Virus record (IMG/VR): IMGVR_UViG_3300028800_000009
Coordinates: 1-64,000 of that record
DNA: 64,000 nucleotides
Origin: a virus
Reading direction: 5' to 3' (one strand)
Shown here: positions 6,058-30,368 of the stretch, one piece after another
Position numbering within the stretch: position 1 is the first letter of the stretch
Layout: each line of letters opens with the position of its first letter
Translations under genes and position numbers: made by a program
Notes under the pieces: generated by a model
Databases searched by the model: none
What the model saw: the letters and a program-made list of their open reading frames with translations, nothing else
Told to the model about the DNA's origin: nothing

Positions 6058-7661
6058 AGTCCATGATTCCTTTATGGACGCACCAAGAAAAAATATTCGA
6101 GCGCTCGAAGGACGCCCCGGCTTGGGCTCTACTGATGGAGCAACGGACCGGTAAGAGCCGTATCGCAGTTATGACCGCCGAGCATCTATTTTGTAAAGGC
6201 GAAATCGACGCCGTCGCGGTCGTCGCCCCGCTCGGCGTCGACGTAAACTGGACCCTCGACGAGTTCCCGAAGTGGGCTACCGCGCCGTTCGCGTCTTTTA
6301 ACTGGCGAGTGAAACGCGTCGGAAAGGAATTCCTTCGGCGATTCGAAGAATTCCTTTCTATTCGCGACCGCCTCCCCGTCTTTACGATGAACGTCGACGC
6401 GCTAATTACGGAGGAGGGAAAGAAATCTCTTAAAAGATTTCTTTCCCAACGTCGCGTCCTCTATATCCTCGACGAGTCCGACGTCATATGTAATCCCGGC
6501 GCGAAAAGGACGAAGACCGCGCTCGCCTCCTCGAAATACGCGCCCTACCGGCGTATCCTTACCGGAACGCCCGTCGCTGAGTCGCCATTCGACGCCTACG
6601 CGCAGTTCAAATTCCTCGACCCTGCGATCCTCGGCTTCTCTGAGTTCTCATCTTTCAAGGCTCGGTACGCGGATATCGGGGTTACGGGCGACCGCGCGTT
6701 CCGGGAGGTCCATGATCGGGTCTACGCTCGCGAGATCGCTGCCGGGCGCCAGCCGCCCGTCGCGGAAGGCATCGCCATCACGGAAGCTGCCCGAATTGGG
6801 AAAACATGGGACGAGGTGAAGGAGTATCGGAATTTAGAAGAGCTATCCTTAAAAATCGGAGCTTTCAGCTCCCGAGTTTTGCGCTCCGAAGTCTCCGACG
6901 CCCCCGCGAAAATCTACGCGAAAGCCCGCTTCCAACTTACGCCACGCCAGCGCGCTTTCTACGACGAACTTCGCGATAAGTTCATCGCCGAGCTATCGTC
7001 GGAGGAAGTCGTCTCGACCTCGAACGTCCTCGCGCGCTATACGCGTCTTCAGCAAGTTACGTCGAACCTCGCCGTCCTCGACCGCGTAGCCCAGGAGTGC
7101 CCGCGTTGCGTCGGGACCGATCCGGAATGCGTCGCCTGTGACGGCATCGGGCTCGTGGTGCCGGAACGGATTGAAAAGCGAATCGACGAGACGAACCCAC
7201 GGCTCCTTTCGCTGGGGGAAGAGCTAAGGCGTAATCGCCTTAGCTCTTCCATCGTATGGTGCAAGTTCAACGTCGACGTTGATGACGTTATCGGGCTCCT
7301 CGAAAAGATGGGGCGTAGACCAGTCCGATACGATGGTCGCATCTCGGACGAAGAAAAACTCCGTTCGAAGCGCGCGTTCCAAGAGGGGTTAGCAACCGAT
7401 ATCGTCGGCAAGACCTCGTCGGGGGGACGAGGTCTTGATTTCTCCCGAACCGAAGGTATCCATTTCTATAACTGCGCATTCCCCTTACGATGGCGCCTTC
7501 AGGGCGAGGATCGTGGCGAATCGCTCTTAAAGCGCTTCGCCACGATCGTTACCGATCACATTGCGGAAGATAGCATCGATGACAAGATCGTAGAGGCGCT
7601 GCGTAACAAGCGCCAAGTTTCGTCGCTTGTTACCGGCGATCGCGTAGAGGACTGGATATGA
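6054..7661 (+). CDS. SNF2-type superfamily 2 DNA helicase/ATPase
   Basis: 535 aa. ATG 6054 overlaps the upstream stop (ATGA), so the longer open frame is rejected. Walker A is QRTGKS near residue 30, motif II is DESD at 140-143 and motif III is LTGTP at 169-173. The second RecA lobe carries SSGGRGLDFS and LQGEDR near the C-terminus. A zinc-ribbon-like insert CPRC-x6-CVAC occupies residues 349-362. Such phage helicases work in replication or recombination. The coding sequence holds six long inverted repeats, each reported separately. Confidence 0.9.
   Translation: MKSMIPLWTHQEKIFERSKDAPAWALLMEQRTGKSRIAVMTAEHLFCKGEIDAVAVVAPLGVDVNWTLDEFPKWATAPFASFNWRVKRVGKEFLRRFEEFLSIRDRLPVFTMNVDALITEEGKKSLKRFLSQRRVLYILDESDVICNPGAKRTKTALASSKYAPYRRILTGTPVAESPFDAYAQFKFLDPAILGFSEFSSFKARYADIGVTGDRAFREVHDRVYAREIAAGRQPPVAEGIAITEAARIGKTWDEVKEYRNLEELSLKIGAFSSRVLRSEVSDAPAKIYAKARFQLTPRQRAFYDELRDKFIAELSSEEVVSTSNVLARYTRLQQVTSNLAVLDRVAQECPRCVGTDPECVACDGIGLVVPERIEKRIDETNPRLLSLGEELRRNRLSSSIVWCKFNVDVDDVIGLLEKMGRRPVRYDGRISDEEKLRSKRAFQEGLATDIVGKTSSGGRGLDFSRTEGIHFYNCAFPLRWRLQGEDRGESLLKRFATIVTDHIAEDSIDDKIVEALRNKRQVSSLVTGDRVEDWI
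6322..6358. repeat. Intragenic inverted repeat 1 (helicase gene)
   Basis: GAAAGGAATTC / GAATTCCTTTC, 11 bp, extended by TTCG/CGAA after one unpaired base. Lies wholly in coding sequence. Confidence 0.95.
6416..6447. repeat. Intragenic inverted repeat 2 (helicase gene)
   Basis: GGGAAAGAAATCT / AGATTTCTTTCCC, 13 bp perfect, 6-base loop. Uses AT-rich codons (AAA TCT CTT AAA AGA TTT) unusual for this gene. Confidence 0.95.
7217..7250. repeat. Intragenic inverted repeat 3 (helicase gene)
   Basis: GGAAGAGCTAAGGCG / CGCCTTAGCTCTTCC, 15 bp perfect, 4-base loop TAAT. Confidence 0.97.
7409..7437. repeat. Intragenic inverted repeat 4 (helicase gene)
   Basis: CAAGACCTCGTC / GACGAGGTCTTG, 12 bp perfect, loop GGGGG. 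Confidence 0.97.
7509..7547. repeat. Intragenic inverted repeat 5 (helicase gene)
   Basis: GATCGTGGCGAA / TTCGCCACGATC, 12 bp perfect, 15-base loop. Confidence 0.97.
7603..7633. repeat. Intragenic inverted repeat 6 (helicase gene)
   Basis: GTAACAAGCG / CGCTTGTTAC, 10 bp perfect, 11-base loop, near the helicase 3' end. Confidence 0.95.
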
Positions 7662-7720
7662 AAATCGCTTTACTTCTGCCTCCGACCCGTTTAACGTCTT
7701 TCCCCAATAGGGAGAACTAG
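7658..7720 (+). CDS. Possible 20-aa leader peptide
   Basis: ATGA overlap with the helicase stop opens a 20-codon frame starting MKIALLLPP and ending TAG just before the next gene. It may only reinitiate ribosomes. There is no further support. Confidence 0.2.
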   Translation: MKIALLLPPTRLTSFPNREN

Positions 7721-7724
7721 GTAA

Positions 7725-8100: not shown

Positions 8101-8102
8101 AA

Positions 8103-8816
8103 ATGAAATATGAATTCACTGGCGAGACCAAAATATCTTTTGGTGTTACCCTTAAGCGTATTCGCGCCCTCATCGAAATTAAATTATGGGGCGTCGCTAA
8201 GGGCGATCTCGGGGGATGGATCGAGAAAGAAGAAAATTTAGCCCGGGTCCACGGCGACGCCTGGGTCTCAGGCAATGCCCGGGTCTACGGCGACGCCCGG
8301 GTCTACGGCAACGCCCGGGTCTACGGCAACGCCCGGGTCTACGGCGACGCCCGGGTCTCCGGCGACGCCCGGGTCTACGGCAACGCCTGGGTCTCCGGCA
8401 ACGCCTGCGTCTCCGGCAACGCCTGGGTCTACGGCGACGCCCGGGTCTCCGGCAACGCCTGCGTCTCCGACGACGCCCGGGTCTCCGACGACGCCTGGGT
8501 CTACGGCGACGCCTGGGTCTCCGACGACGCCCGGGTCTACGGCGACGCCCGGGTCTACGGCAATGCCTGGGTCTCCGGCGACGCCCTGGTCTCTAAACCC
8601 ATTATCGTTGCTTCTCGTTCCGACGGTTATACTTTTCTTTGCGCGCCGCGAGAAAAGAAGCCTCCAGTTATTATTGCAGGATGCCGATATTTTACTTTTG
8701 GTGAAGCCCGAGAACACTGGGAAAAGACACGAGGTGGTACGCCTCTAGGCGATGAATCTTTAGCTCTCGTCGATCATTTGGAAAGAATGGCAAAAATTCA
8801 AGGGTGGGTAGAATGA
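8103..8816 (+). CDS. YdcK-like beta-solenoid repeat protein
   Basis: 237 aa. The N-terminus (RIRALIEIKLWGVAKGDLGGWIEKEENL) is the usual cap of this family. Residues 51-165 are about 18 hexad repeats of the type V-Y-G-D-A-R or V-S-G-N-A-W, forming a left-handed-helix-like solenoid; the C-terminal cap ends in a helix. Relatives occur widely in phages and enterobacteria (YdcK solenoid) but have no settled role. The repeat is encoded by nearly identical 18-bp units, so copy number could change easily by slippage. Start ATG preceded by the AACCTGGAGAATCAG element. Confidence 0.8.
   Translation: MKYEFTGETKISFGVTLKRIRALIEIKLWGVAKGDLGGWIEKEENLARVHGDAWVSGNARVYGDARVYGNARVYGNARVYGDARVSGDARVYGNAWVSGNACVSGNAWVYGDARVSGNACVSDDARVSDDAWVYGDAWVSDDARVYGDARVYGNAWVSGDALVSKPIIVASRSDGYTFLCAPREKKPPVIIAGCRYFTFGEAREHWEKTRGGTPLGDESLALVDHLERMAKIQGWVE
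8254..8592 (+). repeat. 18-bp tandem repeats inside the solenoid gene
   Basis: Units of the form GACGCCCGGGTCTACGGC repeat about 18 times, varying mainly at GAC/AAC, CGG/TGG/TGC and TAC/TCC. The array encodes hexads of the beta-solenoid and is also open in other frames, giving spurious Pro/Arg-rich open frames. Confidence 0.95.
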
Positions 8817-9358
8817 CCGACGACATCGAATCTGCCCCCGATCCATCGAACGACGACCTCGCCGAAGTCTCGCGTCTCGCTAAGCGCGTCCTGGAGCTAT
8901 CCTCTACAATCGATGCGGCACAAGCCGAACTCGACGATATCGAGACGAAGGTCCTACCGGAGCTTATGGCTCTGGTAGGACTCGCCGAGTTCCGCCTCGA
9001 TAGCGGCGAGATCGTGAAGCGTGGGACCGTCGTCCGGGCGTCGATACCCGAAGAGCATCGCTACGAGGCCCACGCACGGCTCGCGGCGATGGGCCATGGC
9101 GATTTGGTCAAGCATGTTATCTCGCTCCAGTTCGGGAAGGGGGAGTCGCAGCAGGCGACGCGCGCCTATGACCTTCTTCGCCAAGAGTTCCCGGACCTTC
9201 CGATTGGGGATAAGGAGTCGGTTCACTCGGGCTCGCTCACGGCGCTGGTAAAGGAACTTCTCTCAAAAGGTCAAGACGTTCCGCTTGACCTTTTTGGCGT
9301 CTTCATCCGCCACGGTGTCACGATCAAGGCGGCGCGGCGAAAGAAGGAGGAATTATGA
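8813..9358 (+). CDS. Coiled-coil replication-module protein (181 aa)
   Basis: ATG 8813 overlaps the previous stop (ATGA) and is preferred to the GTG at 8804. Residues 20-50 form a coiled coil (LAKRVLELSSTIDAAQAELD); the rest is mixed, ending in a basic KAARRKKEEL. It overlaps and is coupled to the SMC-like ATPase at 9355, so a partner or loader role is plausible but not demonstrated. Confidence 0.7.
   Translation: MTDDIESAPDPSNDDLAEVSRLAKRVLELSSTIDAAQAELDDIETKVLPELMALVGLAEFRLDSGEIVKRGTVVRASIPEEHRYEAHARLAAMGHGDLVKHVISLQFGKGESQQATRAYDLLRQEFPDLPIGDKESVHSGSLTALVKELLSKGQDVPLDLFGVFIRHGVTIKAARRKKEEL
8951..8981. repeat. Intragenic inverted repeat 7 (gene 8813)
   Basis: GTCCTACC / GGTAGGAC, 8 bp, continued by a G-U pair and GAGC/GCTC: 13 paired positions in RNA. 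Confidence 0.85.
9265..9294. repeat. Intragenic inverted repeat 8 (gene 8813)
   Basis: AAAAGGTCAAG / CTTGACCTTTT, 11 bp perfect, 8-base loop, ending in a T run, so it is also terminator-like. Confidence 0.95.
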
Positions 9359-10674
9359 AAATCGTCAAGTTCCAGGCCGAGCACTTCAAACGGCTCAAGG
9401 TCGTCGAAATCTCCCCCAGCGGCGATATGATTACGCTCGCCGGCAAGAATGGATCAGGGAAGTCCTCCGTCCTCGACGCGATCTACGCAGCCCTCGGCGG
9501 CCGGGACGCCGCGCCCGAGGTCGCAATCGCGCGCGGCGAGGAGAGCGCCCGTATCCGCCTCGACCTCGGCGAACTCGTCGTAACGCGAAAGTTCACCGCG
9601 AGGGATACCTCAGTCGTCGTCGAGGCGGCTAACGGCGCGCGTTTCCCGTCGCCCCAGCGGATGCTCGACGACTTAATCGGCGCTATCGCCTTCGACCCGC
9701 TTCGGTTCGTAAGGCTGAAGCCGAAGGAGCAGATGGATGAGCTTAGGAAACTCGTCGCCTTCGACGTCGACCTCGACGACCTCGTCCGCCTGAACGCCGC
9801 CGATTACGAGGTGCGGCGGGAGATAAATCGGAGGGCGGCGAGTCTCAGGGCGCAGGGAAGCGCAATCATCGTGCCGGACGATTGCGCTTCCGATCCGGTC
9901 GACGCGAAGGAGATACTCGACCGCCTCACGTCGGCGGGAGACGCGAACGGGAAGCTGGACTATGAGAGGCGTCGGCGCCGGAAACGTGCCGACGACGTCG
10001 AGTCGCTCCGAGTCTCGGCCCGTCTCAAACGCGAGCGGGCGGCGGAACTCAGGCTCGCGGCCGAGGCCCTCGACGGTTCAGCGCGGAAAGCCGACGACGA
10101 CGCGATCGCGATAACCGCCGAACTCGATGGCCTCGCGCCCGTCCCCGATCCGGTCGATGCAGCGGCGATACGGGCGGAATTGGCCGCTGCGGAGGTGATA
10201 AATTCCGCCGTCGCGCGACGCGCCGAGAAGCTCCAGCTCGAAGGAGCCGCGGCGGCCGAGGAGGTGAAGGCGGCAATCATCACAGAGACGATAGCGGGGC
10301 GCGAGAAGGAGCGCACCGAGGCCCTGGCTGCGGCTAAGTTTCCGATCGAGGGGTTAGCATTAGGGAAAGAGGAAGTTCTCTATCGCGAACTCCCTCTTTC
10401 CCTCGCCTCCTCCGGCGAGCAGATACGGGTATCGATGGCCATTGCGATGGCGATGAACCCGACCCTCCGGGTCATATCCATTCGGGAGGGATCGTTCTTA
10501 GACCAAGAAGGTCTAAGAACGATCGCCGAGATGGCGCGGGAGAAGGGTTATCAGGTCTGGGTCGAAGACAACCGGTCGACCGACCCTATGGCGATCGTGA
10601 TGGAAGACGGGAGCGTCTCGGAGTGCCCCGGCCACGTCGCGTCGGAGGCGGACCCGACCCGACGAGCCCGCTAA
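9355..10674 (+). CDS. SMC/RecF-like AAA ATPase
   Basis: 439 aa. Walker A GKNGSGKSS (residues 30-38) follows a RecF-type N-terminus (MKIVKFQAEHFKRLK). The middle is a long charged coiled coil (about 150-310). The signature region SSGEQIRVSMAIAMAMN starts near residue 352, and the Walker-B-like strand reads RVISIREG, with Glu378 retained but no preceding Asp, as in related phage ATPases. It probably acts in recombination, repair or as a replication accessory ATPase. Coupled to both neighbours. Contains three strong inverted repeats. Transcription downstream is limited by the terminator at 10697. Confidence 0.8.
   Translation: MKIVKFQAEHFKRLKVVEISPSGDMITLAGKNGSGKSSVLDAIYAALGGRDAAPEVAIARGEESARIRLDLGELVVTRKFTARDTSVVVEAANGARFPSPQRMLDDLIGAIAFDPLRFVRLKPKEQMDELRKLVAFDVDLDDLVRLNAADYEVRREINRRAASLRAQGSAIIVPDDCASDPVDAKEILDRLTSAGDANGKLDYERRRRRKRADDVESLRVSARLKRERAAELRLAAEALDGSARKADDDAIAITAELDGLAPVPDPVDAAAIRAELAAAEVINSAVARRAEKLQLEGAAAAEEVKAAIITETIAGREKERTEALAAAKFPIEGLALGKEEVLYRELPLSLASSGEQIRVSMAIAMAMNPTLRVISIREGSFLDQEGLRTIAEMAREKGYQVWVEDNRSTDPMAIVMEDGSVSECPGHVASEADPTRRAR
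9856..9891. repeat. Intragenic inverted repeat 9 (SMC-like gene)
   Basis: GGAAGCGCAATC / GATTGCGCTTCC, 12 bp perfect, 12-base loop. Confidence 0.97.
10362..10403. repeat. Intragenic inverted repeat 10 (SMC-like gene)
   Basis: AGGGAAAGAGG / CCTCTTTCCCT, 11 bp, then one mismatch and AGTTC/GAACT: 16 of 17 paired, 8-base loop. Confidence 0.95.
10490..10524. repeat. Intragenic inverted repeat 11 (SMC-like gene)
   Basis: GATCGTTCTTAGACC / GGTCTAAGAACGATC, 15 bp perfect, loop AAGAA. Falls just after the Walker-B-like strand and uses TTA, CTA and AGA codons. Confidence 0.97.
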
Positions 10675-10696: not shown

Positions 10697-10732
10697 CCGG
10701 GGCGCGTTCCCCCGAGCGCGCCCCGGCTTTTT
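10697..10732 (+). terminator. Rho-independent terminator
   Basis: Perfect 10-bp stem CCGGGGCGCG / CGCGCCCCGG (10697-10706, 10717-10726) with a 10-base loop, followed by CTTTTT. It lies in the 70-base gap after the SMC-like ATPase. The next gene's GAGAGGA ribosome-binding site follows at once, so it may be partial. Confidence 0.85.
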
Positions 10733-10744: not shown

Positions 10745-11050
10745 ATGGCTATGAAGAAGAAGATTAACTGGAAAGCGCGGGCGCTTGAATCGGAGCAGGA
10801 CCACGATATTATCCGCTTCGAGTTCGAGCGCCCGATCCCGATAATCCTCTTCTGCCCGATGTGCGGACTTCGCCATATCGACGTCGGCGAGTTCTCGGAG
10901 AAGCCCCACCATACCCATGCCTGTCAGGGCTGTGGCTTCGTCTGGCGGCCATCGACGCGCTTCACGGTCGGGGTCCAGTTCCTCCCCGATTTCAAGGACG
11001 ACCCCGAGGCGATTAAGCGTTGGGAGAAAGCTCAAAAGGTGCCGTTGTGA
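10745..11050 (+). CDS. Zinc-ribbon phage protein (101 aa)
   Basis: Contains CPMCGLRHIDVGEF, then KPHHTHACQGCGFVW: a four-Cys zinc ribbon with a His cluster. This Cys/His pattern is common in phage early proteins of unknown biochemical role. The alternative start is the second Met (residue 3). Stop overlaps the next start (GTGA). Confidence 0.75.
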   Translation: MAMKKKINWKARALESEQDHDIIRFEFERPIPIILFCPMCGLRHIDVGEFSEKPHHTHACQGCGFVWRPSTRFTVGVQFLPDFKDDPEAIKRWEKAQKVPL

Positions 11051-11637
11051 ACCACATCATGATAGACCTGGAGACCCTCGGCGTCGGAACCTTCCCCGCA
11101 CTCCTCTCGATTGGCGCGGTCGTCTTCGATCCGGAGAGCGGGGTATTACCTCCGACTCCTAATCTTGAAGCATCTGCGAGCAGTTGGATGATGCGCTTAA
11201 TCAGCGTCGAGAGTTGCCTTCGCCTCGGCGCTACGGTTTCCGATTCGACACTCGCCTGCTGGGCTTCCCCCGAACTCGACGCCGCCCGCCCGGGGACGTT
11301 CGGGGGAACTTATCCCATAAAAGACGCGATCAATGACTTAAATATATTCGTATGCCATTACGGCGCGCAGCGGGTATGGTTCCACGGTTTGACTTTCGAC
11401 GTCGCTATCCTTACGAGGTACGCCGAGCTTGTCGGTTTATCCTGGCAGTTCGACTATCGCGCCGGCCGCGACACGCGGACGCTCTTCGACCTCGCGCCGG
11501 AAGTCGTCCGTGAAGCGTTCGCGGATAAGCCGTCCGAGTTTATTAAGCACAACGCGGTCTGGGACGCGTGGCTCCAAGCGAAAGCCGTTTGCAAAGTCTA
11601 CGCTGAACTGAGGAATTGTCAGTGGTTCGCGGGCTAA
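11047..11637 (+). CDS. DEDD 3'-5' exonuclease (Rv2179c/DnaQ-like)
   Basis: 196 aa from GTG 11047, chosen for its GTGA overlap; an internal ATG at 11059 is the alternative. Exo I is MIDLETLG (Asp and Glu metal ligands), Exo II lies in WFHGLTFDVAIL, and Exo III is the C-terminal H-x4-D block (IKHNAVWDAWLQ). These features match the Rv2179c-like exonuclease group, which acts on single-stranded nucleic acid. It probably serves phage replication or RNA turnover, separately from the polymerase's own exonuclease domain. Confidence 0.8.
   Translation: MNHIMIDLETLGVGTFPALLSIGAVVFDPESGVLPPTPNLEASASSWMMRLISVESCLRLGATVSDSTLACWASPELDAARPGTFGGTYPIKDAINDLNIFVCHYGAQRVWFHGLTFDVAILTRYAELVGLSWQFDYRAGRDTRTLFDLAPEVVREAFADKPSEFIKHNAVWDAWLQAKAVCKVYAELRNCQWFAG
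11265..11308. repeat. Intragenic inverted repeat 12 (exonuclease gene)
   Basis: TTCCCCCGAAC / GTTCGGGGGAA, 11 bp perfect, 22-base loop. Confidence 0.95.
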
Positions 11638-11732: not shown

Positions 11733-12638
11733 ATGACTGAGAAGAAGCACCAGGACACCGAAGCAAAGAACCTGCCGGAAGAGATACCGCCAAAGCGCGA
11801 AGAGAATCGCGCTTTGGCCGTCGTCGATTACGGCGATCAGGCCGGCGCCGGCGCCGAGGGGATGAGCCAGGACGACTACAAGATTCCGCTGTTGCGAATC
11901 CTCCAGACCAATTCGCCCCAGGTCGACGGCGAGAAGAAGATCGAGGGGGCGGTTGCGGGGATGATCTTCAATACGGCGACCCAGGAGTTTTGGGACGTGA
12001 CGAAACAAAAATTAATTTTCGTTCCGTCACAACGAGACCGGAACTTCGTCGAGTATATCCCGCGCGAGCCGTGGGGCGGCGGTTTCGTCGGAACGCGGAA
12101 GCCGGACGATCCGCTCGTCCTTAAGCTTCTCAAAGAGCAGGGGAAGTTCGGGAAGCTGAAGTATGCCGAAGGGACGACACTCGCGACGACCGGCCAGCAG
12201 GTCCCGACCGAGATCAGCGATACGTTCTACCTCTACGGTATCGTTGTGACGCCGTACGGGGTCCCCCAGCGCGCGGTCATCCCGTTTACCTCGACCCAAA
12301 TCCCGAAATACCAGGCATGGGCCGCGGTCTACGATAACACGCGCTACCCCGGGAAGAACCGCTCGCTCATCCTCCCCCCGGTGTGGTGCCACCGCTACGC
12401 GCTCGGGACCCGCGCCGAATCGAACAAGAAGGGGCGTTTCTACGGCTGGACGCTCGGCTTCGAGAAGAGCCCGTCGATCGAGAGCCGGATCGATGCGCGG
12501 GAAGGCCATCCCGAGTTCGACCCGCTGGCGAAGATGGCGTCGGAGTTTTACGATATGATCAAGCGGGGCGCGGCGAAGATCGACCGCGATGCCGAGCAGG
12601 CCGCCGGCGTCGAGAAGGACGAAGAAGTTCCGTTCTAG
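11733..12638 (+). CDS. Replication-module protein with SSB-like acidic tail
   Basis: 301 aa; ATG 11733 sits behind AAGGAGTAATC. The central domain is beta-rich and basic (KLIFVPSQRDRNFVEYIPRE; PFTSTQIPKYQAWAAVY). The C-terminus is acidic and ends EKDEEVPF, close to the DDDIPF-type tail by which single-strand-binding proteins recruit partners. The family is common in phage replication clusters. A ssDNA-binding role is inferred from the tail and position, not from a recognised OB-fold. Confidence 0.6.
   Translation: MTEKKHQDTEAKNLPEEIPPKREENRALAVVDYGDQAGAGAEGMSQDDYKIPLLRILQTNSPQVDGEKKIEGAVAGMIFNTATQEFWDVTKQKLIFVPSQRDRNFVEYIPREPWGGGFVGTRKPDDPLVLKLLKEQGKFGKLKYAEGTTLATTGQQVPTEISDTFYLYGIVVTPYGVPQRAVIPFTSTQIPKYQAWAAVYDNTRYPGKNRSLILPPVWCHRYALGTRAESNKKGRFYGWTLGFEKSPSIESRIDAREGHPEFDPLAKMASEFYDMIKRGAAKIDRDAEQAAGVEKDEEVPF
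11790..11817. repeat. Intragenic inverted repeat 13 (SSB-tailed gene)
   Basis: CCAAAGCGCGA / TCGCGCTTTGG, 11 bp perfect, 6-base loop. Confidence 0.97.
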
Positions 12639-12824
12639 ATGAAGCTTGTTCGATCCAACGGTAGTGAGCTTACGGTAAGGGATACGGGGCCGGTCGTTTT
12701 CCGGCTCCGTGCCTCGCCGGGCGCCCCGTTACCGTTGTTGGATGAAGTTATGGAAGAGGAGGAAGCCAGGATCATCCTTCGAACGCTCCTGGCTTCCCGC
12801 CGCTACGAAGGGGGTAAGGTATGA
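12639..12824 (+). CDS. Hypothetical protein (61 aa)
   Basis: ATG immediately follows the previous TAG. Beta-rich N-terminus, then an acidic helix EVMEEEEARIILRTLLASRR. Stop overlaps the next start (ATGA). Two inverted repeats (12684-12710 and 12761-12797) occupy a third of this short gene, so its codons are strongly constrained. Function unknown. Confidence 0.6.
   Translation: MKLVRSNGSELTVRDTGPVVFRLRASPGAPLPLLDEVMEEEEARIILRTLLASRRYEGGKV
12684..12710. repeat. Intragenic inverted repeat 14 (gene 12639)
   Basis: ACGGGGCCGG / CCGGCTCCGT, 10 paired positions with one G-U, 7-base loop. Confidence 0.9.
12761..12797. repeat. Intragenic inverted repeat 15 (gene 12639)
   Basis: GGAAGCCAGG / CCTGGCTTCC, 10 bp perfect, 17-base loop. 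Confidence 0.95.
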
Positions 12825-13525: not shown

Positions 13526-14176
13526 ATGAATCAGATCACCAAGTTTTTCGTCGTCGACTACCGTCTATTGAACGATATCAAGATCGCTGAATATCCAACC
13601 GAGGAGGAAGCTCGCACGAACTGCCCGTCCGAGGGCGGCGCGAGCGTCGTTACCTCCGAGGAAGCGCTCCGCGCCTTCGACGGACCAATCCTCGTCGCGG
13701 TGTACAACCGTATCCGCCGCGGCGCCATGATCAAACGGTTCGAGAGCAAGGAAGCCGGCGTCCGCCGTGTCTGGGTTCTTTTGGAGAACTACGACCCGGC
13801 GCTGATCAATCCCTCGGCTTCGCCCGAGGTTCCCAAAACCGAACCGACGACGGGCGAAGCCGCCGGCGACAAAGAGGAGGCCGATATGGCCGCAAAGACG
13901 AAGTCCAAACGCAAGTCCGCCGGCCGCGGCGTCAAGAAAACGAGCGCGCGCGCGCGTTCGTCCGATACGAAGCGCGCGCGTATCTCCGACGACGCGAAGA
14001 TCACGGTCCTCGCGGCCGAAAACCCGAAGAAGCCCGGCTCGGAGGCTTTCAAACGCTTCGAGAAATACCGGACCGGCTCGAAGGTCTCGACGACGCTCGC
14101 GAACGGCGTCACGCGCGCCGATCTGTCGTGGGACCGCGCCCACGGCTTCATTGCGATCGAGAACCCGAAGGAATAA
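13526..14176 (+). CDS. Basic-tailed protein, possible DNA-binding (216 aa)
   Basis: Residues 1-95 are a folded mixed domain (FFVVDYRLLNDIKIAEYPTE). Residues 115-155 are a Lys/Arg/Ala-rich, histone-H1-like stretch (KTKSKRKSAGRG, ARARSSDTKRAR). The C-terminus has KITVLAAENPKKPGSEAFKR and FEKYRTGSKV, reminiscent of small phage domains near polymerase genes. Own promoter and leader upstream. Nucleoid-like or DNA-binding function is inferred from charge. Confidence 0.55.
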   Translation: MNQITKFFVVDYRLLNDIKIAEYPTEEEARTNCPSEGGASVVTSEEALRAFDGPILVAVYNRIRRGAMIKRFESKEAGVRRVWVLLENYDPALINPSASPEVPKTEPTTGEAAGDKEEADMAAKTKSKRKSAGRGVKKTSARARSSDTKRARISDDAKITVLAAENPKKPGSEAFKRFEKYRTGSKVSTTLANGVTRADLSWDRAHGFIAIENPKE

Positions 14177-15738: not shown

Positions 15739-18700
15739 ATGCCAGGCATAAAGTTCGGCGGCGCGAAAGCCAAGAAGAAGGTGAAAGAAGACGGCGACCT
15801 ACTTTCTCTCGCTTCGGGGAAAGATGAGGGTCTTCTTCTTTCCCCCTCCGACTCCTGGTCCGAGGTCTGGAAAGGGATGCCAACCTACGAGATGGGGTCG
15901 ACCGAAGCCTTCCGAAAGGTAACGATCCATCTCCGCGATCCTGGAGAGTTAGAGGACCTCTCCAGGATGCTCGGGATCGATTTAACCGACCGGACCTCGA
16001 CCGTCTATCTCTCCCGCGACGAGGACTACGTCGCGCCGAAGGAGCTAATCTACGAGAGCGACGATCCGAGGCCGCCGCGCTACCCGGTCTACGTCATCTC
16101 CAAGGGGCGTTGGGATACGCCGCTAACGGCCGAGGCCCTCCGCGCGATCGGCGTTCCACATAAGGTCGTCATCGAACCTTCCGAGGCCTCCCGGTACGAG
16201 GAGGCGCTGGGTAAGGAGCGTCTTCTCGTCGCCCCGGAAGACTTCTCGAAACGCGGCGAGGGCGGTATCCCCGTCCGTAACTTTGTTTGGGAGACGGCCG
16301 TCGCGAGCGGAGCGAAGCGGCATTGGATCCTGGACGATAACATTCACGGGTTTCTACGATTGAACAGGAATCGGAGAATCCCCGTGTCGGGGCCGTCGAT
16401 TTTCCGCGCAGCCGAAGACTTCTCCGACCGCTACGAGAACGTCGCGCTGTCGGGCTTCAACTATATGTACCTAGCGCGGGACAATCAAGAGCTACCGCCT
16501 TTCTGTTTGAACACGCGTATCTACTCGATGATCCTGATCAATCACGATCTGGATCTCCCGGAGCGTTGGCGGGGTCGGTATAACGAGGATACGGACCTTT
16601 CCTTACGCGCCCTCAAGGCCGGATGGGCGACTGTGCTCTTTAACGCGTTCCTCGGGGATAAGGCGCCGACCCTGACGATGAAGGGCGGCAACGCGGAGAT
16701 ATACGCCGACAGCGATCGTCGGCGCGAGTTCGCGGAGAGCCTTAAGGCCCAGCACCCGGACGTCGTCGAGGTCGTCTGGCGCTACGAACGCTGGCACCAC
16801 GAGGTCAACTATCGGCCTTTCGCCGGAAACCGGCTGATCCCGAGGAAGGATCAGCCGGTTTCCGCCGGCGAATACGGAATGAGGATCGCGCGCAGCTCCC
16901 GGACGGGCCGCTATGTCCCCCCGCCGCTCGCCCCGGTCGTTATTACGATGGCGCCGAGGAAAGCGGAGGCTCTTCCAAAAGAACCCGTAGAAATAAAAGA
17001 AGAGCCTCCGCTTTCCTCGGTTTCCCTAACCCCACGCTCCTCTAAGCCGGAGAACGCCGCCCCCGTCGTTTTCGCCCCCCGCGCCGCTAAAACGACGATG
17101 TTGAGCGCCCCCGAGGCGAACCGCTACGTCGACCCCTTCCTTCGCTCTATCGAGCCCCAGCTTAAGGTCTGGGATACCGAGCTATACCCGCCGAAGTTCG
17201 ACTACGCGACGTGGCCGTGGGGCGATAAGTCCTTCGTCGTCGCCGACGTCGAGGTATTCGAGAATTTTTTCCTCGTGGCGGTCAAGCGTTTGCAGGATGG
17301 CAAACGCTTGACCTTCGAGCTTAGCGATCGCTCCCCGAAGCTTAATCGGATCGAGCTAGAGACCGTGATGCTGAATAATTGTATCGTCACGTTCAACGGC
17401 AATAACTTCGACCTCCCGATCATCGGGATGGCGCTGCTCGGCTTCGATAACCGTAAGCTCAAGGAGGCATCGAATCGGATCATTCGCGAGGGGATCAAGT
17501 CGTGGGATATTGAACGTGAATTCGGGGTTCGACTTCCCAAGTTCAATTCGATCGATCTTATGGAGCCCAACCCGAGCGTACGGATGGGGCTTAAGATGCT
17601 CCACGCGCGGCTGAACGGTCGCTTCATCGTCGATCTTCCGTTCGAGGATGTCGAACTGAGTAGCCGCGAGATGAACGTCGCGACGCTCTACTGCCTTAAC
17701 GACCTCGACGCGACCGAGGGACTCTGTAACGCCCTCCGGGAACCGCTCGACCTTCGTCGCGCCCTCTCGGGCCAGTACGGAATGGACCTGCGCTCGAAGA
17801 GTGACGCCCAAGTCGGGGAAGCGATCGTAAAGAGCCGGGTGGGGATTAGGGGGAACCCGAAAGACGGTATCCCTTCGATACAGTCTTTCGGGTATTCTGT
17901 CCCCAGCTTTGTATCCTTCGAAAGCCCAGCCCTCCGCGAAGTCCTCCGTAGCCTCCGCGAGACGACCTTCCACATCAACGGCTCCGGTCGCGTCGAGACC
18001 CCGGATTGGCTTAAGGACCTTTCTATACCTCTAGGCTCGGCCGCGTATACGATGGGAATAGGCGGTCTTCATTCGACCGAGGGCTCGCGCGCCATTCTCT
18101 CGGACGAAGAGAACGTCCTCGTCGATATCGACGTCTCTAGCCAGTATCCGAGGATCATCCTCAAGCTCGGGCTCTACCCGAAGGCGCTCGGGCCGAAGTT
18201 CCTCGACGTTTACCGCGAACTGACGGACGAGCGCGTCGCCGCGAAAGCGGCCGGCGATAAGACGAAGGCCGATGGCGGTAAAATCGCGCTGAACGGGGTG
18301 TACGGCAAGCTCGGATCGTCCTATTCGATCCTCTACGCCCCGGACCTGATGATCGCGACGACCCTGACCGGCCAGCTCTCGCTCTTGATGTTGATTGAGC
18401 GCCTTGAAGCCGCGGGGATACCCGTGGCTTCAGGCAACACGGATGGCGTGCTCCCGTTCGTGAAACGATCGAAGCTGAAGGAATTAGCTTCGATCGTTTC
18501 GCGATGGGAGGCCGAAACCGGTTTCGCGATCGAGCGGACGGAGTACGACGCGATCTACAACTCGTCCGTCAATTCTTATATCGCGGTAAAGCCCGGCGGA
18601 AAGACCAAGATCAAGGGGCCGCTCGCTAACCCATGGCGCGAGGGGAATCTCCGCGAGATGCTATCGAAGAACCCCCAGATGACGATCCTCTCGGACGCGC

Positions 18701-19065
18701 TCGTGGACCTGATCGTAAAAGGAACGCCGGTAGAGGAGACGATAACAAACGCGGCGGACCCGCGCGCGTTTGTTACGGTAATCCAAGTACGCGGCGGCGC
18801 AGAATGGCGCGGAGCGAAGCTCGGGCGCGTCGCGCGCTATTACTATTCGTTCGACGGCGATCCGATCCTCGACGCGAAGGGGAAGCGCCAGGTTGCGAAA
18901 ACGGAGGGAGCGAAGCCGTTAATGGAATTGACGGCTTCGCTCCCCGAAGACGTGGATCGTTTGCGATACTTCGAAGAAGCGAAAGCGCTCGCCGTCGACT
19001 ACGCTATCCTGAAACCAGAGGGAGAGTTAGCTGAAGATAGTTGTTGTGTAATTCCGTTTGTGTAA
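15739..19065 (+). CDS. TET-associated-glycosyltransferase-like domain fused to family-B-like DNA polymerase
   Basis: 1108 aa with no internal break. Residues about 113-355 match my knowledge of TAGT glycosyltransferases: PVYVISKGRW, then HWILDDNIHGFLRLNRNRR with DDN at 199-201, FCLNTRIYS, RWRGRYNEDTDLSLRALKAGW and TMKGGN. A Pro-rich linker (356-475) follows. The rest is a DNA polymerase with Exo I VADVEVFE (Asp503, Glu505), Exo II FNGNNFD, Exo III YCLNDLD, motif A DVSSQYP (Asp798), motif B KIALNGVYG (Lys848) and motif C SGNTDGV (Asp902; the first Asp of the usual DTD is Asn). Predicted role: replicate phage DNA and, through the N-domain, glycosylate hydroxymethylated cytosine. Ten inverted repeats lie within the gene. 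Confidence 0.85.
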   Translation: MPGIKFGGAKAKKKVKEDGDLLSLASGKDEGLLLSPSDSWSEVWKGMPTYEMGSTEAFRKVTIHLRDPGELEDLSRMLGIDLTDRTSTVYLSRDEDYVAPKELIYESDDPRPPRYPVYVISKGRWDTPLTAEALRAIGVPHKVVIEPSEASRYEEALGKERLLVAPEDFSKRGEGGIPVRNFVWETAVASGAKRHWILDDNIHGFLRLNRNRRIPVSGPSIFRAAEDFSDRYENVALSGFNYMYLARDNQELPPFCLNTRIYSMILINHDLDLPERWRGRYNEDTDLSLRALKAGWATVLFNAFLGDKAPTLTMKGGNAEIYADSDRRREFAESLKAQHPDVVEVVWRYERWHHEVNYRPFAGNRLIPRKDQPVSAGEYGMRIARSSRTGRYVPPPLAPVVITMAPRKAEALPKEPVEIKEEPPLSSVSLTPRSSKPENAAPVVFAPRAAKTTMLSAPEANRYVDPFLRSIEPQLKVWDTELYPPKFDYATWPWGDKSFVVADVEVFENFFLVAVKRLQDGKRLTFELSDRSPKLNRIELETVMLNNCIVTFNGNNFDLPIIGMALLGFDNRKLKEASNRIIREGIKSWDIEREFGVRLPKFNSIDLMEPNPSVRMGLKMLHARLNGRFIVDLPFEDVELSSREMNVATLYCLNDLDATEGLCNALREPLDLRRALSGQYGMDLRSKSDAQVGEAIVKSRVGIRGNPKDGIPSIQSFGYSVPSFVSFESPALREVLRSLRETTFHINGSGRVETPDWLKDLSIPLGSAAYTMGIGGLHSTEGSRAILSDEENVLVDIDVSSQYPRIILKLGLYPKALGPKFLDVYRELTDERVAAKAAGDKTKADGGKIALNGVYGKLGSSYSILYAPDLMIATTLTGQLSLLMLIERLEAAGIPVASGNTDGVLPFVKRSKLKELASIVSRWEAETGFAIERTEYDAIYNSSVNSYIAVKPGGKTKIKGPLANPWREGNLREMLSKNPQMTILSDALVDLIVKGTPVEETITNAADPRAFVTVIQVRGGAEWRGAKLGRVARYYYSFDGDPILDAKGKRQVAKTEGAKPLMELTASLPEDVDRLRYFEEAKALAVDYAILKPEGELAEDSCCVIPFV
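15816..15845. repeat. Intragenic inverted repeat 17 (polymerase gene)
   Basis: GGGGAAAGA / TCTTTCCCC, 9 bp perfect, 12-base loop, N-terminal extension of the fusion protein. Confidence 0.9.
15938..15968. repeat. Intragenic inverted repeat 18 (polymerase gene)
   Basis: ATCCTGGAGAG / CTCTCCAGGAT, 11 bp perfect, 9-base loop. Confidence 0.97.
16824..16864. repeat. Intragenic inverted repeat 19 (polymerase gene)
   Basis: CGGAAACCGGCTGATCC / GGATCAGCCGGTTTCCG, 17 bp perfect, 7-base loop, at the end of the glycosyltransferase-like domain. Confidence 0.98.
16954..17020. repeat. Intragenic inverted repeat 20 (polymerase gene), 22-bp arms
   Basis: Arms 16954-16975 and 16999-17020 are perfect complements over 22 bp with a 23-base AT-rich loop. 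This is the longest inverted repeat in the window and encodes part of the inter-domain linker. Confidence 0.98.
17280..17313. repeat. Intragenic inverted repeat 21 (polymerase gene)
   Basis: GGTCAAGCGTTTGC / GCAAACGCTTGACC, 14 bp perfect, 6-base loop. The arms encode the two strands of a beta turn (VKRLQDGKRLT) just after Exo I. Confidence 0.98.
17855..17893. repeat. Intragenic inverted repeat 22 (polymerase gene)
   Basis: ACCCGAAAGAC / GTCTTTCGGGT, 11 bp perfect, with an inner TATC/GATA pair. Confidence 0.96.
18462..18500. repeat. Intragenic inverted repeat 23 (polymerase gene)
   Basis: GAAACGATCGAAGCT / AGCTTCGATCGTTTC, 15 bp perfect, 9-base loop, extended by G-U and two G-C pairs. Lies just after polymerase motif C. 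Confidence 0.98.
18743..18775. repeat. Intragenic inverted repeat 24 (polymerase gene)
   Basis: TAACAAACGCG / CGCGTTTGTTA, 11 bp perfect, 11-base loop. Confidence 0.97.
18906..18944. repeat. Intragenic inverted repeat 25 (polymerase gene)
   Basis: GGGAGCGAAGCCGT / ACGGCTTCGCTCCC, 14 bp perfect, then T-G wobble and AAT/ATT: 18 paired positions. Confidence 0.98.
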
Positions 19066-19867: not shown

Positions 19868-20251
19868 ATGGCTGAAATAGACGATGACGCCGAAAAGGCT
19901 AAGCGCGATGCTGGGTTTAAGAAGTTCCTCGCTGATACCGACAAAGAGACGCTGTGGTGGGCGCACTACCGCCTACTAAGCGCGCTTCATGCCGCTCGAT
20001 ATGCGGCAGATACCGACAAGAACAAGGATCAGCAGGCCATTCTCCACATAATCGGCGTCACCGCCGATTATTGGCAACCGCAACTACCGGGGATGCCTAG
20101 TTATATCGAGGTCGCGAAGGAATGCCGCGCAGACGACGATCACCATGAGCTTACCTATCTCGGCGAGCGGCTGGGCGTCTACATCACCGGCGATGAGTTC
20201 ATGACTAAGGGTAGTGGTCGCGAGACGTGGGTCTGCTATGAGCAAAGATAG
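19868..20251 (+). CDS. Hypothetical protein (127 aa)
   Basis: ATG behind ACAGGAGCTAGGGGTTG. Helical, with DKETLWWAHYRLLSALHAARYA and a C-terminal beta part ending ETWVCYEQR. It abuts the next gene with no gap. No recognised domain. Confidence 0.6.
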   Translation: MAEIDDDAEKAKRDAGFKKFLADTDKETLWWAHYRLLSALHAARYAADTDKNKDQQAILHIIGVTADYWQPQLPGMPSYIEVAKECRADDDHHELTYLGERLGVYITGDEFMTKGSGRETWVCYEQR

Positions 20252-25058: not shown

Positions 25059-26126
25059 ATGGGCATGCCCGACAAGAGCCTAACCGAAGAGCAAGAGAGG
25101 ATCGCCGAAGCGGTTCGCGACTTCGTTACGACCGCTTCGCCCGGAGATTTCTTCGTTATCCAAGGTCTCGCCGGGACCGGTAAGACAACCTTGATGACCT
25201 CTCTCGATCTTCCAGGAGCAGTCCTCGTCGCGCCGACCGGGAAGGCTGCATCGGTCCTCCGCGCGAAGTCCGACCGCGACGCGATGACGATTCATTCCGC
25301 GATCTACAACTTCTGTGGGACCAAGACCGACGAAAACGGGAAGCTCGTTCCCATCTTCGTCGATAAGGATTTTGTCTCGCTCCCGCTCGTGCTACTCGAC
25401 GAATCGAGCATGGTTGGTCAATCCTTAGCGACCGATCTCCTCGCGACCGGCGCCGTCGTCGTCGCTTTCGGCGACCCTGGGCAATTGCCGCCGGTCAAAG
25501 ATCGCCAGTTCTTTAATTCGCCGGACGCGACCCTACGCGAAATCCATCGGCAGGCCCTCGATTCGCCAATCATAAGACAAGCTCACCGTATCCGTAACGG
25601 CGAGCGTGCCGTTACGGATGGCGACGGCTTCGTATGCCTTCCATCCTCCCGCGGGCTCGACCTAACATCCTTCGGTATCGTCCTCTGCTGGACGAACAAG
25701 ACGCGGACGGCGCTTAATTCGATCATACGAAAAGCGAAGGGTATAGAAGGCCCTTCGCTTTTCCCAGGCGAGCCCGTGATGTGTCTTCGGAACGACTACG
25801 CTCGGGGTATCTTTAACGGAGAGATATATCGGGTTGCGAAGGAGCGCGCGCCGGGGACGACCCTATGGCTAGAGGGCGGATCGGTCATTCCTAAAGCCAA
25901 GGTCGAGCGGTTCGACGGCGACTTCGACAAAGAGGACGACGAGACGACGCCGTTCGCGCTCGCTTACGCTTCGACGTGCCACAAATTCCAGGGTAGTGAA
26001 GAAGAGCGCGTCCTCGTCTTCGACGAGATGGGTTCCGATCGTCAAGAGCGAGCGCGCTGGCTCTATACCGCCGTGACCCGCGCGCGGAGCCACGTTACGG
26101 TCGTACGGCCGGAGGATTGGGGATGA
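25059..26126 (+). CDS. RecD/Dda-like ATP-dependent DNA helicase
   Basis: 355 aa superfamily 1 helicase. Motif I GLAGTGKTTL, Ia APTGKAAS, II LLDESSMVG, III FGDPGQLPPV, IV region REIHRQ, V STCHKFQGSE, VI LYTAVTRAR. This is the Dda/RecD2-like type with 5'-3' polarity. It likely unwinds DNA at phage forks or during recombination. Starts a second replication block after the accessory island and overlaps the nuclease gene (ATGA). Three inverted repeats lie in the coding sequence. Confidence 0.9.
   Translation: MGMPDKSLTEEQERIAEAVRDFVTTASPGDFFVIQGLAGTGKTTLMTSLDLPGAVLVAPTGKAASVLRAKSDRDAMTIHSAIYNFCGTKTDENGKLVPIFVDKDFVSLPLVLLDESSMVGQSLATDLLATGAVVVAFGDPGQLPPVKDRQFFNSPDATLREIHRQALDSPIIRQAHRIRNGERAVTDGDGFVCLPSSRGLDLTSFGIVLCWTNKTRTALNSIIRKAKGIEGPSLFPGEPVMCLRNDYARGIFNGEIYRVAKERAPGTTLWLEGGSVIPKAKVERFDGDFDKEDDETTPFALAYASTCHKFQGSEEERVLVFDEMGSDRQERARWLYTAVTRARSHVTVVRPEDWG
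25106..25139. repeat. Intragenic inverted repeat 26 (RecD-like gene)
   Basis: CGAAGCGGT / ACCGCTTCG, 9 bp perfect, 16-base loop. Confidence 0.9.
25590..25619. repeat. Intragenic inverted repeat 27 (RecD-like gene)
   Basis: ATCCGTAACGGC / GCCGTTACGGAT, 12 bp perfect, 6-base loop. Confidence 0.97.
25729..25763. repeat. Intragenic inverted repeat 28 (RecD-like gene)
   Basis: GAAAAGCGAAGGG / CCCTTCGCTTTTC, 13 bp perfect, 9-base loop. Confidence 0.97.
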
Positions 26127-26572
26127 GCGGCTCCGAGGACTCACTCTGGAAAATGGAGCGCGATAAGCTCTCCTCATTTGGCATTCTTAAACGGATCGAG
26201 CACAAGCACGAGCTAGGCTGGCCCGACGTCCTCTACGTTCTCCGCCGGCCGGCGCCGTTTCACGATCAGCGCGCGACGGGTTTCATAGAGAACAAGCAGC
26301 TCGACGGGTGGCCTATTCGCGCAAGCTCGGTAGTAAGGATACCGAGCTTGACGCGAGACCAAGCTAACTGGCTCGGGGCTTGGAGCAAGGCGGGTGGCCG
26401 AGCGGCCCTAGGTCTTCAAGTCGGGTCCGAATACCTCTTCTTCTCGGGCTCGGTCGTCGGGCCGATATTCCTCGATAACCCCTTACCGCAAGCAGCGGTA
26501 AGGGGTTATGCCGGGCTTATAATGTCCGACGGCTTCAGGGTCGCCGACGCCCTAAAGTTCCTGGCGGGCTGA
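26123..26572 (+). CDS. Probable PD-(D/E)XK nuclease (149 aa)
   Basis: ATG 26123 coupled to the helicase stop. LGWPDVLYVLRR supplies the catalytic Asp after a Gly-Trp-Pro, GFIENKQLDGWP gives the E-x-K, and TRDQANWLGAWSKAGGRAAL matches the Q-containing helix and basic strand of VRR-NUC or Holliday-resolvase-like phage nucleases. Joint position with the helicase suggests processing of replication or recombination intermediates. Two strong hairpin repeats in the coding region. Confidence 0.7.
   Translation: MSGSEDSLWKMERDKLSSFGILKRIEHKHELGWPDVLYVLRRPAPFHDQRATGFIENKQLDGWPIRASSVVRIPSLTRDQANWLGAWSKAGGRAALGLQVGSEYLFFSGSVVGPIFLDNPLPQAAVRGYAGLIMSDGFRVADALKFLAG
26322..26350. repeat. Intragenic inverted repeat 29 (nuclease gene)
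   Basis: CAAGCTCGGTA / TACCGAGCTTG, 11 bp perfect, 7-base loop, extended by CGCG/CGCG beyond a one-base bulge. Confidence 0.97.
26475..26509. repeat. Intragenic inverted repeat 30 (nuclease gene)
   Basis: ATAACCCCTTACCGC / GCGGTAAGGGGTTAT, 15 bp perfect, loop AAGCA. Uses TTA, CAA, GCA, GTA and AGG codons. Confidence 0.98.
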
Positions 26573-26581
26573 AGATGGCAC

Positions 26582-26640: not shown

Positions 26641-26642
26641 AG

Positions 26643-27044
26643 ATGCTTAAGAAAACCGAAGCCAAGCCATTTTCAGTCATACTGACCATTCCGGCGGACC
26701 GCATCGCGAACATGATGATCTCGTTCGTCGAGAGCGGCGATCCCGTCACGCACGCCTCTAAGGGAGGCTGGTGCGCCGGGATCAGCCTTAAGTTCCACAC
26801 ATTCCCCCTCTGGTACGCCAGCCCGGAGACCTGGTCAAACGACTTTACCGTCGCGGTCGACGAGGTCGGGGACGGGAAAATAAAAACCCACTTCATACGC
26901 CGCGCCGACCTCGTCCGCGGCCTGGCGATCCTCGCCGAAAAGTATCCGGATCACTTCGCTATGATCCTACGGGACGACACCGACGCGCCGTGCGCGGACC
27001 TCTTCGTTCAGTGCGTCCTCTTCGGGGAGGAAAAATATGCTTGA
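26643..27044 (+). CDS. Hypothetical protein (133 aa)
   Basis: First gene after a promoter. Starts MLKKTEAKPFSVILTIPADR; mixed alpha/beta, with HASKGGWCAGISLKF and a C-terminal ADLFVQCVLFGEE strand. Similar small proteins sit beside phage nucleotide-metabolism genes. Overlaps the next gene by 8 bases. Confidence 0.6.
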   Translation: MLKKTEAKPFSVILTIPADRIANMMISFVESGDPVTHASKGGWCAGISLKFHTFPLWYASPETWSNDFTVAVDEVGDGKIKTHFIRRADLVRGLAILAEKYPDHFAMILRDDTDAPCADLFVQCVLFGEEKYA

Positions 27045-29183: not shown

Positions 29184-29187
29184 TCCC

Positions 29188-29247: not shown

Positions 29248-29249
29248 AG

Positions 29250-29525
29250 ATGACCAACAAGCACATACCCTTACGAAAGTATGTGGGTCACGTTTCTGGC
29301 TACGGTGAAGGTATGACCCCCTCCCCACCCGCGCCCCCGGACGACCCCTTCCGCTGGGAAGCCCACAAAGAGGAGTTCCGCGACCTCGCCGTGGTAAAGT
29401 ACCGCCAGGGCGTGAAGGACGGCCTCCGGGAGGGCGACCTCGACCTCCTCGGGGAATGGGTCCGACGGTTCGAGGAAGGGGGTAATCTCTACCCTCTTCC
29501 TCCGAGACGTAATTTTATTACCTAA
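29250..29525 (+). CDS. Hypothetical protein (91 aa)
   Basis: Last rightward gene. A Pro-rich stretch (PSPPAPPDDPFRWE) is followed by a charged helix (EEFRDLAVVKYRQGVKDGLR). Has its own promoter and leader. A hairpin (29472-29502) lies near its 3' end. Unknown. Confidence 0.6.
   Translation: MTNKHIPLRKYVGHVSGYGEGMTPSPPAPPDDPFRWEAHKEEFRDLAVVKYRQGVKDGLREGDLDLLGEWVRRFEEGGNLYPLPPRRNFIT
29472..29502. repeat. Intragenic inverted repeat 31 (gene 29250)
   Basis: GAGGAAG / CTTCCTC plus a G-U and GGGTA/TACCC: 13 paired positions, 5-base loop. Confidence 0.85.
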
Positions 29526-29729
29526 ATACGAGAGTCCAGGAGCAGGCCGCCTAGGGGCCTTCTCCTGGGGCGCCCCCTCTATAGCGCCCGACCCCCTCCC
29601 CCTAACCACGCCCCCTGAAACCGGGGTCCTCCGGCTAAATAAAAAGCCCCGCTTCCTAGGGAGGCGGGGCTTTCGGGTAGAGGCTCTTAGGGGGAGAGGG
29701 CAACCAATTCTCTCGCTCTAGTCCCTCGA
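29526..29729. other. Intergenic switch between early (+) and late (-) modules
   Basis: About 200 bases between convergent genes with no convincing open frame. It is C-rich (CCCCCTCT runs) and contains the bidirectional terminator at 29643. No promoter was recognised. Confidence 0.7.
29643..29673. terminator. Bidirectional terminator between convergent modules
   Basis: AAAGCCCCGC (29643-29652) pairs with GCGGGGCTTT (29664-29673) around an 11-base loop. The stem is flanked by A and T runs, giving a U-tract on either strand. It separates the rightward early genes from the leftward late genes. Confidence 0.85.
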
Positions 29730-30368
29730 TTATACCCCCTTCGCGGGGACGGTAGGAAGCGAATTATAGACCACCTCGAAAGCCGGCCGGACGTTTACGA
29801 GAAGGTGATCGGCGACGAGCCGCTCGATCCGGAAGGCCGTGGACCCGAGCTGGAGCAGCGGGAGCGAGCCGAACCGCGGCGGAAGGGAGGGGACGTCGTC
29901 GCAGCCGTTCCGGGTAGCGATGCTCGGAACGGCTGCGATCGCGGTAAGTGCAGCCGTCCCGAGGGCGCGGGCCGGTTCGAAGACGACGAGCCGCTCGACC
30001 GCGATCCCGAGGAGGATGAGCATCAGGACGAAGATTTGGGCCTCGGCGCCACCCTTGGAATGGCCCCCGATATAGATCATCTTCCCGGCGGCGACCGCCG
30101 TTAGAACGAGCGGAATTAGCCGCCATGCGATCGAGGTCGCCGAGGCGAAAAATCCGGCGTCGACCGAGAAGCCGGCGAGGTCGGTTGATTCGGCGTCCGC
30201 GTCCGTTAGGTCGTCGCGGATGTTATTCGTACCTTTGAAGGATATCCGGATCGATGTCGCGTCTTCGACGACGAGGGCGTGGGCCAAGTCCGAGCTGATC
30301 GTCGGGGCGACGTAGGCGCGCTCGGCGTCGCCGAGCATCACGAGATCGATAGGGAGGAGGGCTATCAC
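29730..30368 (-). CDS. Lipase/esterase-like serine hydrolase (212 aa)
   Basis: GTG at 30368 overlaps the neighbour's stop (GTGA), so the longer open frame is dropped. SIRISFKGTNNIRDD resembles the oxyanion region of class-3 lipases, and YIGGHSKGGAEAQ is the GxSxG nucleophile elbow with Ser in GHSKG. FEPARALG follows as the acid-bearing strand region. Last gene of the late operon; it may attack envelope lipids or polysaccharide esters during entry or lysis. An inverted repeat (29899-29938) lies inside. Confidence 0.65.
   Translation of the reverse strand: MIALLPIDLVMLGDAERAYVAPTISSDLAHALVVEDATSIRISFKGTNNIRDDLTDADAESTDLAGFSVDAGFFASATSIAWRLIPLVLTAVAAGKMIYIGGHSKGGAEAQIFVLMLILLGIAVERLVVFEPARALGTAALTAIAAVPSIATRNGCDDVPSLPPRFGSLPLLQLGSTAFRIERLVADHLLVNVRPAFEVVYNSLPTVPAKGV
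29899..29938. repeat. Intragenic inverted repeat 32 (lipase-like gene, minus strand)
   Basis: TCGCAGCCGTTCCG / CGGAACGGCTGCGA, 14 bp perfect, 12-base loop with inner AGC/GCT. The only strong member found in the leftward module. Confidence 0.96.

Follow-up and report, generated by a model that had tools for sequence, protein, structure and literature searches.

Coding palindromes concentrated in the replication genes of an uncultured virus with Pam3-like early genes: possible products of fold-back template switching

The nearest described case to the one presented here is that of the coding palindromes of nematomorph (hairworm) mitochondria (PMC6649704, PMC10380579), for which a conversion mechanism has been favored, although its cause is unknown (PMC6649704). 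Three other systems invite comparison: quasi-palindrome template-switch mutation, known from E. coli and phage T4 (PMC7202029), linked in yeast to high transcription and replication direction (PMC3820800) and seen as arm homogenization in yeast genes (PMC8604942); RNA hairpins whose perfect stems are made by template switching (PMC8794818); and Rickettsia palindromic elements (RPE), which place hairpins inside coding genes. In the current study, we analyzed a window of 64,000 bases, out of the 72,121 bases of IMG/VR record IMGVR_UViG_3300028800_000009, from an uncultured virus, and found that its replication genes carry a large excess of perfect inverted repeats that replace native coding sequence in place. 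The literature that we searched yielded no report of coding palindromes in a phage.

As in the nematomorphs, the repeats are numerous, perfect and far above codon-aware expectation. The replication genes, which run rightward at 5.7-19.1 and 25.06-29.5 kb (16.9 kb in total), contain 24 perfect inverted repeats with arms of at least 11 bp and loops of 3 to 25 nucleotides (nt), against a mean of 0.34 (maximum, 2) in 200 shuffles that moved codons among synonymous positions within each gene and thereby kept both protein and codon use. In both systems the two arms encode native protein with no insertion (the phage exception being an overwritten helicase motif, described below), spacers are short, codon use in the arms is more even, few repeats lie in the most constraining phase (the three pairing phases are represented 10:10:5 here), some genes are hairpin free, and the palindromes are lineage specific, which for the phage is judged against distant relatives only. 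The two cases differ in that phage arms measure 9 to 22 bp, whereas those of nematomorphs reach 142 bp, and in that the phage repeats occupy a single transcription module of a DNA phage rather than mitochondrial DNA, show a strongly oriented base composition and are accompanied by an excess of imperfect hairpins, none being reported in nematomorphs. With quasi-palindrome mutation (PMC7202029, PMC3820800, PMC8604942) the phage repeats would share a passage from imperfect to perfect, dependence on direction, homogenized arms within coding DNA and, by way of yeast, a possible link to high transcription. However, such mutations are known as rare single events or hotspots, whereas about 40 hairpins have accumulated here in about 17 kb of a single viral genome. 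The template-switch RNA hairpins (PMC8794818) likewise have perfect stems, copied there as reverse complements, and the direction of switching has been proposed to skew their pair frequencies; those, however, are RNA genes under selection for structure, oriented toward G-C and U-A, while the phage repeats lie in mRNA genes and carry A on the 5' side.

The excess in the replication genes was also found at other arm lengths, with 33 repeats observed against 2.9 expected at arms of at least 9 bp, 16 against 0.13 at 12 bp and 10 against 0.04 at 13 bp. It is confined to loops of about 3 to 25 nt; there was no excess of inverted repeats with loops of 41 to 200 nt, nor of direct repeats outside a beta-solenoid gene at 8103-8816. 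The hairpins are irregularly spaced (coefficient of variation, 0.92) and occur between genes as well as within them. A sequence-only reading of the window had listed 32 inverted repeats here, and our independent scan recovered them where they had been placed (e.g., 16954-17020, with 22-bp arms), while the codon-preserving shuffles bear out the excess that it had proposed. The total is nearer 40, because imperfect hairpins also exist at 8951, 10777, 11997, 16345, 18403, 26859 and 29469.

The contrast with the late genes, which are of the contractile-tailed phage type and lie on the opposite strand, is overwhelming. These 26.9 kb hold 9 repeats against 4.0 expected at arms of at least 9 bp and a single one against 0.33 at 11 bp, and the probability of at most one hairpin there at the early rate is 1.5e-17; their rarity in this region had been noted correctly. 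Outside the window, the record (L040; 72,121 bp) has a further 8.1 kb, with no perfect repeat with arms of at least 11 bp. Likewise, the ribonucleotide reductase gene contains none, as had been described, although this is weak evidence alone (Poisson P=0.065). The early accessory islands, which had been called hairpin free, are not entirely so: a 10-bp hairpin lies at 20048-20071, and a methyltransferase-like gene has at its 3' end a 14-bp hairpin with a 3-nt loop (950-980), perhaps a terminator. Codon use is otherwise common to early and late genes (r=0.93), and to that extent, on weak evidence, the late genes do not look as if they had been acquired from elsewhere with a separate history.

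In the polymerase, glycosyltransferase and helicase genes, the residues encoded by the hairpins align without gaps to those of relatives, and the proteins have gained no length. Many hairpins encode clearly native sequence. For example, the hairpin at 17280-17313 (arms of 14 bp, loop of 6) encodes VKRLQDGKRLT where the related locus L041 has FKRFEDGKRLA, and that at 7409-7437 (arms of 12, loop of 5) lies over conserved SNF2 helicase motif V and retains its SSGGRGL. The ungapped alignments indicate that no palindromic element was inserted and that no segment is skipped. The exception is at 7509-7547 (arms of 12 bp, or 17 with one mismatch), where EDRGESLLK stands in place of motif VI, whose family consensus is EDRAHRIGQ. 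The assertion that no recognized motif is disturbed thus fails at a highly conserved site; the overwriting of motif VI is a cost rather than a function, and, as far as its sequence tells, the helicase may work less well or differently. More generally, right arms are less conserved than positions with the same residues elsewhere (p=0.02), and loops show a similar trend; conservation of the left arms is not significantly below background.

The stems are Watson-Crick paired and mostly perfect. Selection on mRNA folding is expected to leave wobble pairs and an advantage for the sense strand. We found no preference for G-U: among stems of at least 12 bp with one non-Watson-Crick pair, the sense strand shows 4 G-U against 8 A-C, and the interior mismatches of longer stems comprise 2 GU, 3 AC and 7 others. 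Windows that fold strongly make up the same share of either strand (0.037 and 0.040). The lack of a wobble excess, together with equal folding of both strands, counts against ordinary selection on mRNA structure. The hairpins are nonetheless strand specific in composition. Their 5' arms contain A and T at 122:65, A outnumbering T there in 22 of the 25 informative hairpins (p=1.6e-4), and the apical loops are A rich (76/203), the loops, like the 5' arms, also being poor in T; AAGC occurs 10 times in left arms against 1.4 expected and GAAA 9 times against 1.3, both being enriched in 5' arms only. Coding repeats elsewhere show no such orientation (57:52). Both arms, and the loops as well, depart from normal codon use (z of about -4); the departure fades within 15 to 30 nt of a hairpin, and farther out codons are used normally.

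For comparison, we assembled 327 viral and prophage loci (4.8 Mb) that surround genes related to those for the polymerase, the helicases, the reductase and the exonuclease. Their coding sequence has repeats with arms of at least 11 bp at 0.03/kb, against about 1.5/kb in the window, a difference of about fifty-fold, and the densest stretch among these loci has 4 in 5 kb. Among about 3,600 open reading frames (ORFs), the two highest hairpin counts (8 and 6) both belong to genes of the window, the next (5) being that of a cytosine methyltransferase gene in locus L052. Direct homologs in Pam3, RcWhiteOak, L028, L041 and L253 have essentially no hairpins. Alignment of homologous genes, the check that had been proposed for coordinated change of the two arms, revealed no hairpins at the matching positions of the relatives aligned (about 135 at most for a given site), all distant; pairing there was 0.283, compared with 0.260 in a slid control. 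Since relatives barely pair above these controls, the hairpins are not ancestral. At a few sites, among them 6416, 7409, 6322 and 18743, the family is already partly self-complementary (at 6416, 0.44 versus 0.24), as would be expected where quasi-palindromes become perfected.

We propose that direction-biased template switching, in which DNA synthesis folds back on itself, has perfected quasi-palindromes in the replication module to yield coding palindromes, an explanation that we regard as evenly poised between right and wrong. A stalled nascent strand would fold back, copy the arm that it had just made and then rejoin the template; such switching would create and extend short inverted repeats within native coding sequence and keep their arms perfect. 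A single orientation in the rightward early module would leave the arms asymmetric, and early transcription, through RNA-DNA hybrids or transcription-primed synthesis, may supply both the stalls and the direction. The products would be retained at places that the protein can bear and would last as conversion keeps clearing mismatches. We infer the copying event, its direction and the link to transcription from the pattern of the repeats, which are perfect, short range, unrelated, lineage specific, irregular, oriented and sometimes damaging, and which for these reasons fit template switching better than selection on RNA structure. The dependence of quasi-palindrome mutation on transcription and direction in yeast (PMC3820800) could explain both the orientation of the hairpins and their confinement to the early module. 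The sequence-only reading had left selection and template switching side by side. The absence of a G-U signature, equal folding of the strands, the lack of hairpins at homologous sites, irregular spacing, motif loss and precedents including PMC6649704 now tilt the evidence toward switching, whereas the restriction to early genes and the orientation keep selection in contention.

Several findings weigh against this proposal. Its restriction to this phage and this module is not accounted for. Abnormal codons in the loops (z=-3.6) are not predicted by simple copying of an arm, and they and the early-only distribution are also expected if sense-strand hairpins are selected. Native protein is kept in both arms beyond what a single wholesale copy would leave, and the difference in conservation between left and right arms is not significant alone (p=0.36 and 0.50). 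When loops were checked for inversion, it gained no clear support: 8 of 23 fitted better inverted, compared with 24 percent in controls. With 16-nt arms, stems carrying one to three mismatches are also somewhat in excess, many of the mismatches being at stem ends. Moreover, neither the viral scans nor a genome scan found a close relative or variant (the nearest polymerase, in L041, is 59 percent identical and the nearest reductase 64 percent), and hence no conversion event was seen among the scanned sequences.

A tentative alternative is that selection has favored stem-loops on the sense strand of the early module, whether as mRNA or as single-stranded plus-strand DNA, with the codons of arms and loops tuned while the protein is kept. 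Candidate roles are to protect mRNA, to slow translation or to be recognized by a factor of host or phage origin. Such selection would accommodate the limitation to early rightward genes, with codon use returning to normal 30 nt away; the strand-specific A bias of 5' arms and apical loops; the abnormal codons in arms and loops and in the 15 nt that flank them; and the fact that native protein is mostly kept. It sits poorly, however, with stems that show no G-U preference and fold no more strongly on the sense strand, with homologous sites that show neither conservation nor covariation (in distant relatives only), and with the irregular spacing. Loops vary in both size and sequence, no recurring loop motif was found among them, a conserved helicase motif has been destroyed, and there was no match in Rfam. 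The functions that had been named for the hairpins (RNase III sites, replication pausing and recognition by a phage protein) gain no direct support. A still broader version is slightly less probable: it would make the whole module a sense-strand hairpin code of about 40 stem-loops, unrelated in sequence but all rich in A in their 5' arms and loops. Selection would act on them collectively for a function early in infection, and they would be read by shape and orientation and not by sequence, perhaps to protect early RNA, throttle translation or mark single-stranded replication intermediates.

The remaining explanations fare worse. We think it unlikely that the hairpins descend from a mobile palindromic element (RPE, REP or MITE-like) whose in-frame copies have since degenerated and diverged. 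Coding and intergenic hairpins alike share a weak start sequence at their base, G-R-A-A-G in the 5' arm, but the arms are otherwise unrelated, direct repeats are not in excess, hairpin sites are no longer than in relatives, and old, decaying copies would not be expected to keep perfect arms. RPE and REP are inserted families of related sequence, whereas here there is neither insertion nor family, in agreement with the initial judgment that the hairpins are no dispersed element of either kind. An artifact of assembly or amplification, such as displacement-amplification chimeras, is very unlikely. Although the virus is uncultured and represented by one record, with no second copy available, some two dozen coding hairpins keep frame and homologous protein within one module and share a composition bias, which chimeras would not do. 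We give almost no credence to inserts of the byp or gene-60 type, which would stay untranslated because the ribosome bypasses them or because they are cut out of the RNA: the hairpins resemble bypassing elements in form and in being located within genes, but every coding hairpin keeps an open reading frame, and the residues encoded are homologous to those of relatives without gaps.

If template switching is responsible, dozens of directional events are recorded in about 17 kb, which would allow the causes of quasi-palindrome mutation, and whether it is oriented by transcription, to be tested in nature and would provide a DNA-virus counterpart of the hairworm mitochondrial puzzle. If selection is responsible, phage early genes would contain a new layer of information. 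Either reading bears on the forced self-complementarity that a polymerase or helicase gene tolerates.

Myovirus Pam3 has early genes similar to those of the window, which include an SNF2 helicase, gp32-, gp33- and gp34-like genes, a Dda/RecD-like helicase and the ribonucleotide reductase. All hairpins are given in window coordinates on the plus strand, the perfect repeats as recovered by the independent scan. The SNF2-like helicase gene (5688-7661, plus strand; Pfam PF00176/PF00271, phrog_62) has six perfect hairpins with arms of at least 10 bp. Besides the two over motifs V and VI, they are at 6322-6358 (arms of 11, loop of 15), 6416-6447 (13, loop of 6), 7217-7250 (15, loop of 4; the right arm encodes RLSSS, unlike the family) and 7603-7633 (10, loop of 11). 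The 5' portion of this ORF (5688-6050) has no homology and odd codon use, and the real start is probably near 6.05 kb. Farther downstream are hairpins at 8951-8981 (arms of 13 with one G-U), 9265-9294 (11, loop of 8), 9856-9891 (12, loop of 12), 10362-10403 (11, or 17 with one A-C mismatch), 10490-10524 (15, loop of 5), 11265-11308 (11, loop of 22), 11789-11818 (12, loop of 6) and 13815-13862 (12, loop of 24), a long, bulged imperfect hairpin at 10777-10836 and an imperfect one with 20-nt arms (90 percent) at 11997-12030. Intergenic hairpins lie at 10697-10726 (arms of 10, loop of 10) and 12761-12797 (11, loop of 15), the latter with the same GGAAGC start as coding ones.

Eight perfect hairpins with arms of at least 10 bp fall in a gene at 15739-19065 (plus strand; Pfam PF20691, phrog_1252) that fuses a TET-associated glycosyltransferase to a family-B-like DNA polymerase in a single open frame of 1108 amino acids, of which no phage record covers at least 80 percent. 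In addition to that at 17280-17313, these are at 15938-15968 (arms of 11, loop of 9), 16824-16864 (17, loop of 7), 16954-17020 (the longest, with 22 perfect pairs and a loop of 23, in a domain linker), 17855-17893 (11, or 17 with one mismatch), 18458-18504 (19 with one T-G, of which 15 are perfect at 18462-18500), 18743-18775 (11, loop of 11) and 18906-18944 (14, or 18 with one T-G). Imperfect hairpins in the gene comprise a two-stem structure at 16345-16386 and one at 18403-18434 (arms of 14 with two G-U). An apparent 25-residue deletion in the polymerase fingers relative to RcWhiteOak proved ordinary once more homologs were aligned. In the second block, the Dda/RecD-like helicase gene (25059-26126) contains a hairpin at 25106-25139 (arms of 9, loop of 16), and others are at 25590-25619 (12, loop of 6), 25729-25763 (13, loop of 9), 26322-26350 (11, loop of 7) and 26475-26509 (15, loop of 5), with imperfect hairpins at 26859-26915 (an 11-bp base and a long loop) and, at the module end, 29469-29505.

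Two resemblances to known hairpin classes did not hold up: CsrA-type GGA loops number about 8 of 27 by eye from the loop list, near expectation, and TAAC/GTTA bases at four hairpins recall attC ends, but their flanking bases misfit by eye. The methyltransferase gene of L052 (L052:8184-9977, a C5-cytosine methyltransferase gene beside a related polymerase) has five perfect hairpins with loops of 3 to 7, four of them with arms of at least 11 bp against 0.02 in shuffles; it is a second case, limited to one gene and without the A-rich orientation. The product of the gene at 8804-9358 is homologous to Pam3 gp33, which carries the annotation of host-nuclease inhibitor. Should it block SbcCD-like nucleases, the product could aid tolerance of hairpins, but Pam3 carries gp33 without having hairpins. 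The neighboring beta-solenoid gene (8103-8816) encodes a YdcK-type protein, and its DNA has 18-bp tandem repeats. Where the early and late modules converge, a hairpin between them at 29643-29673 with A-rich and T-rich flanks is likely a terminator.

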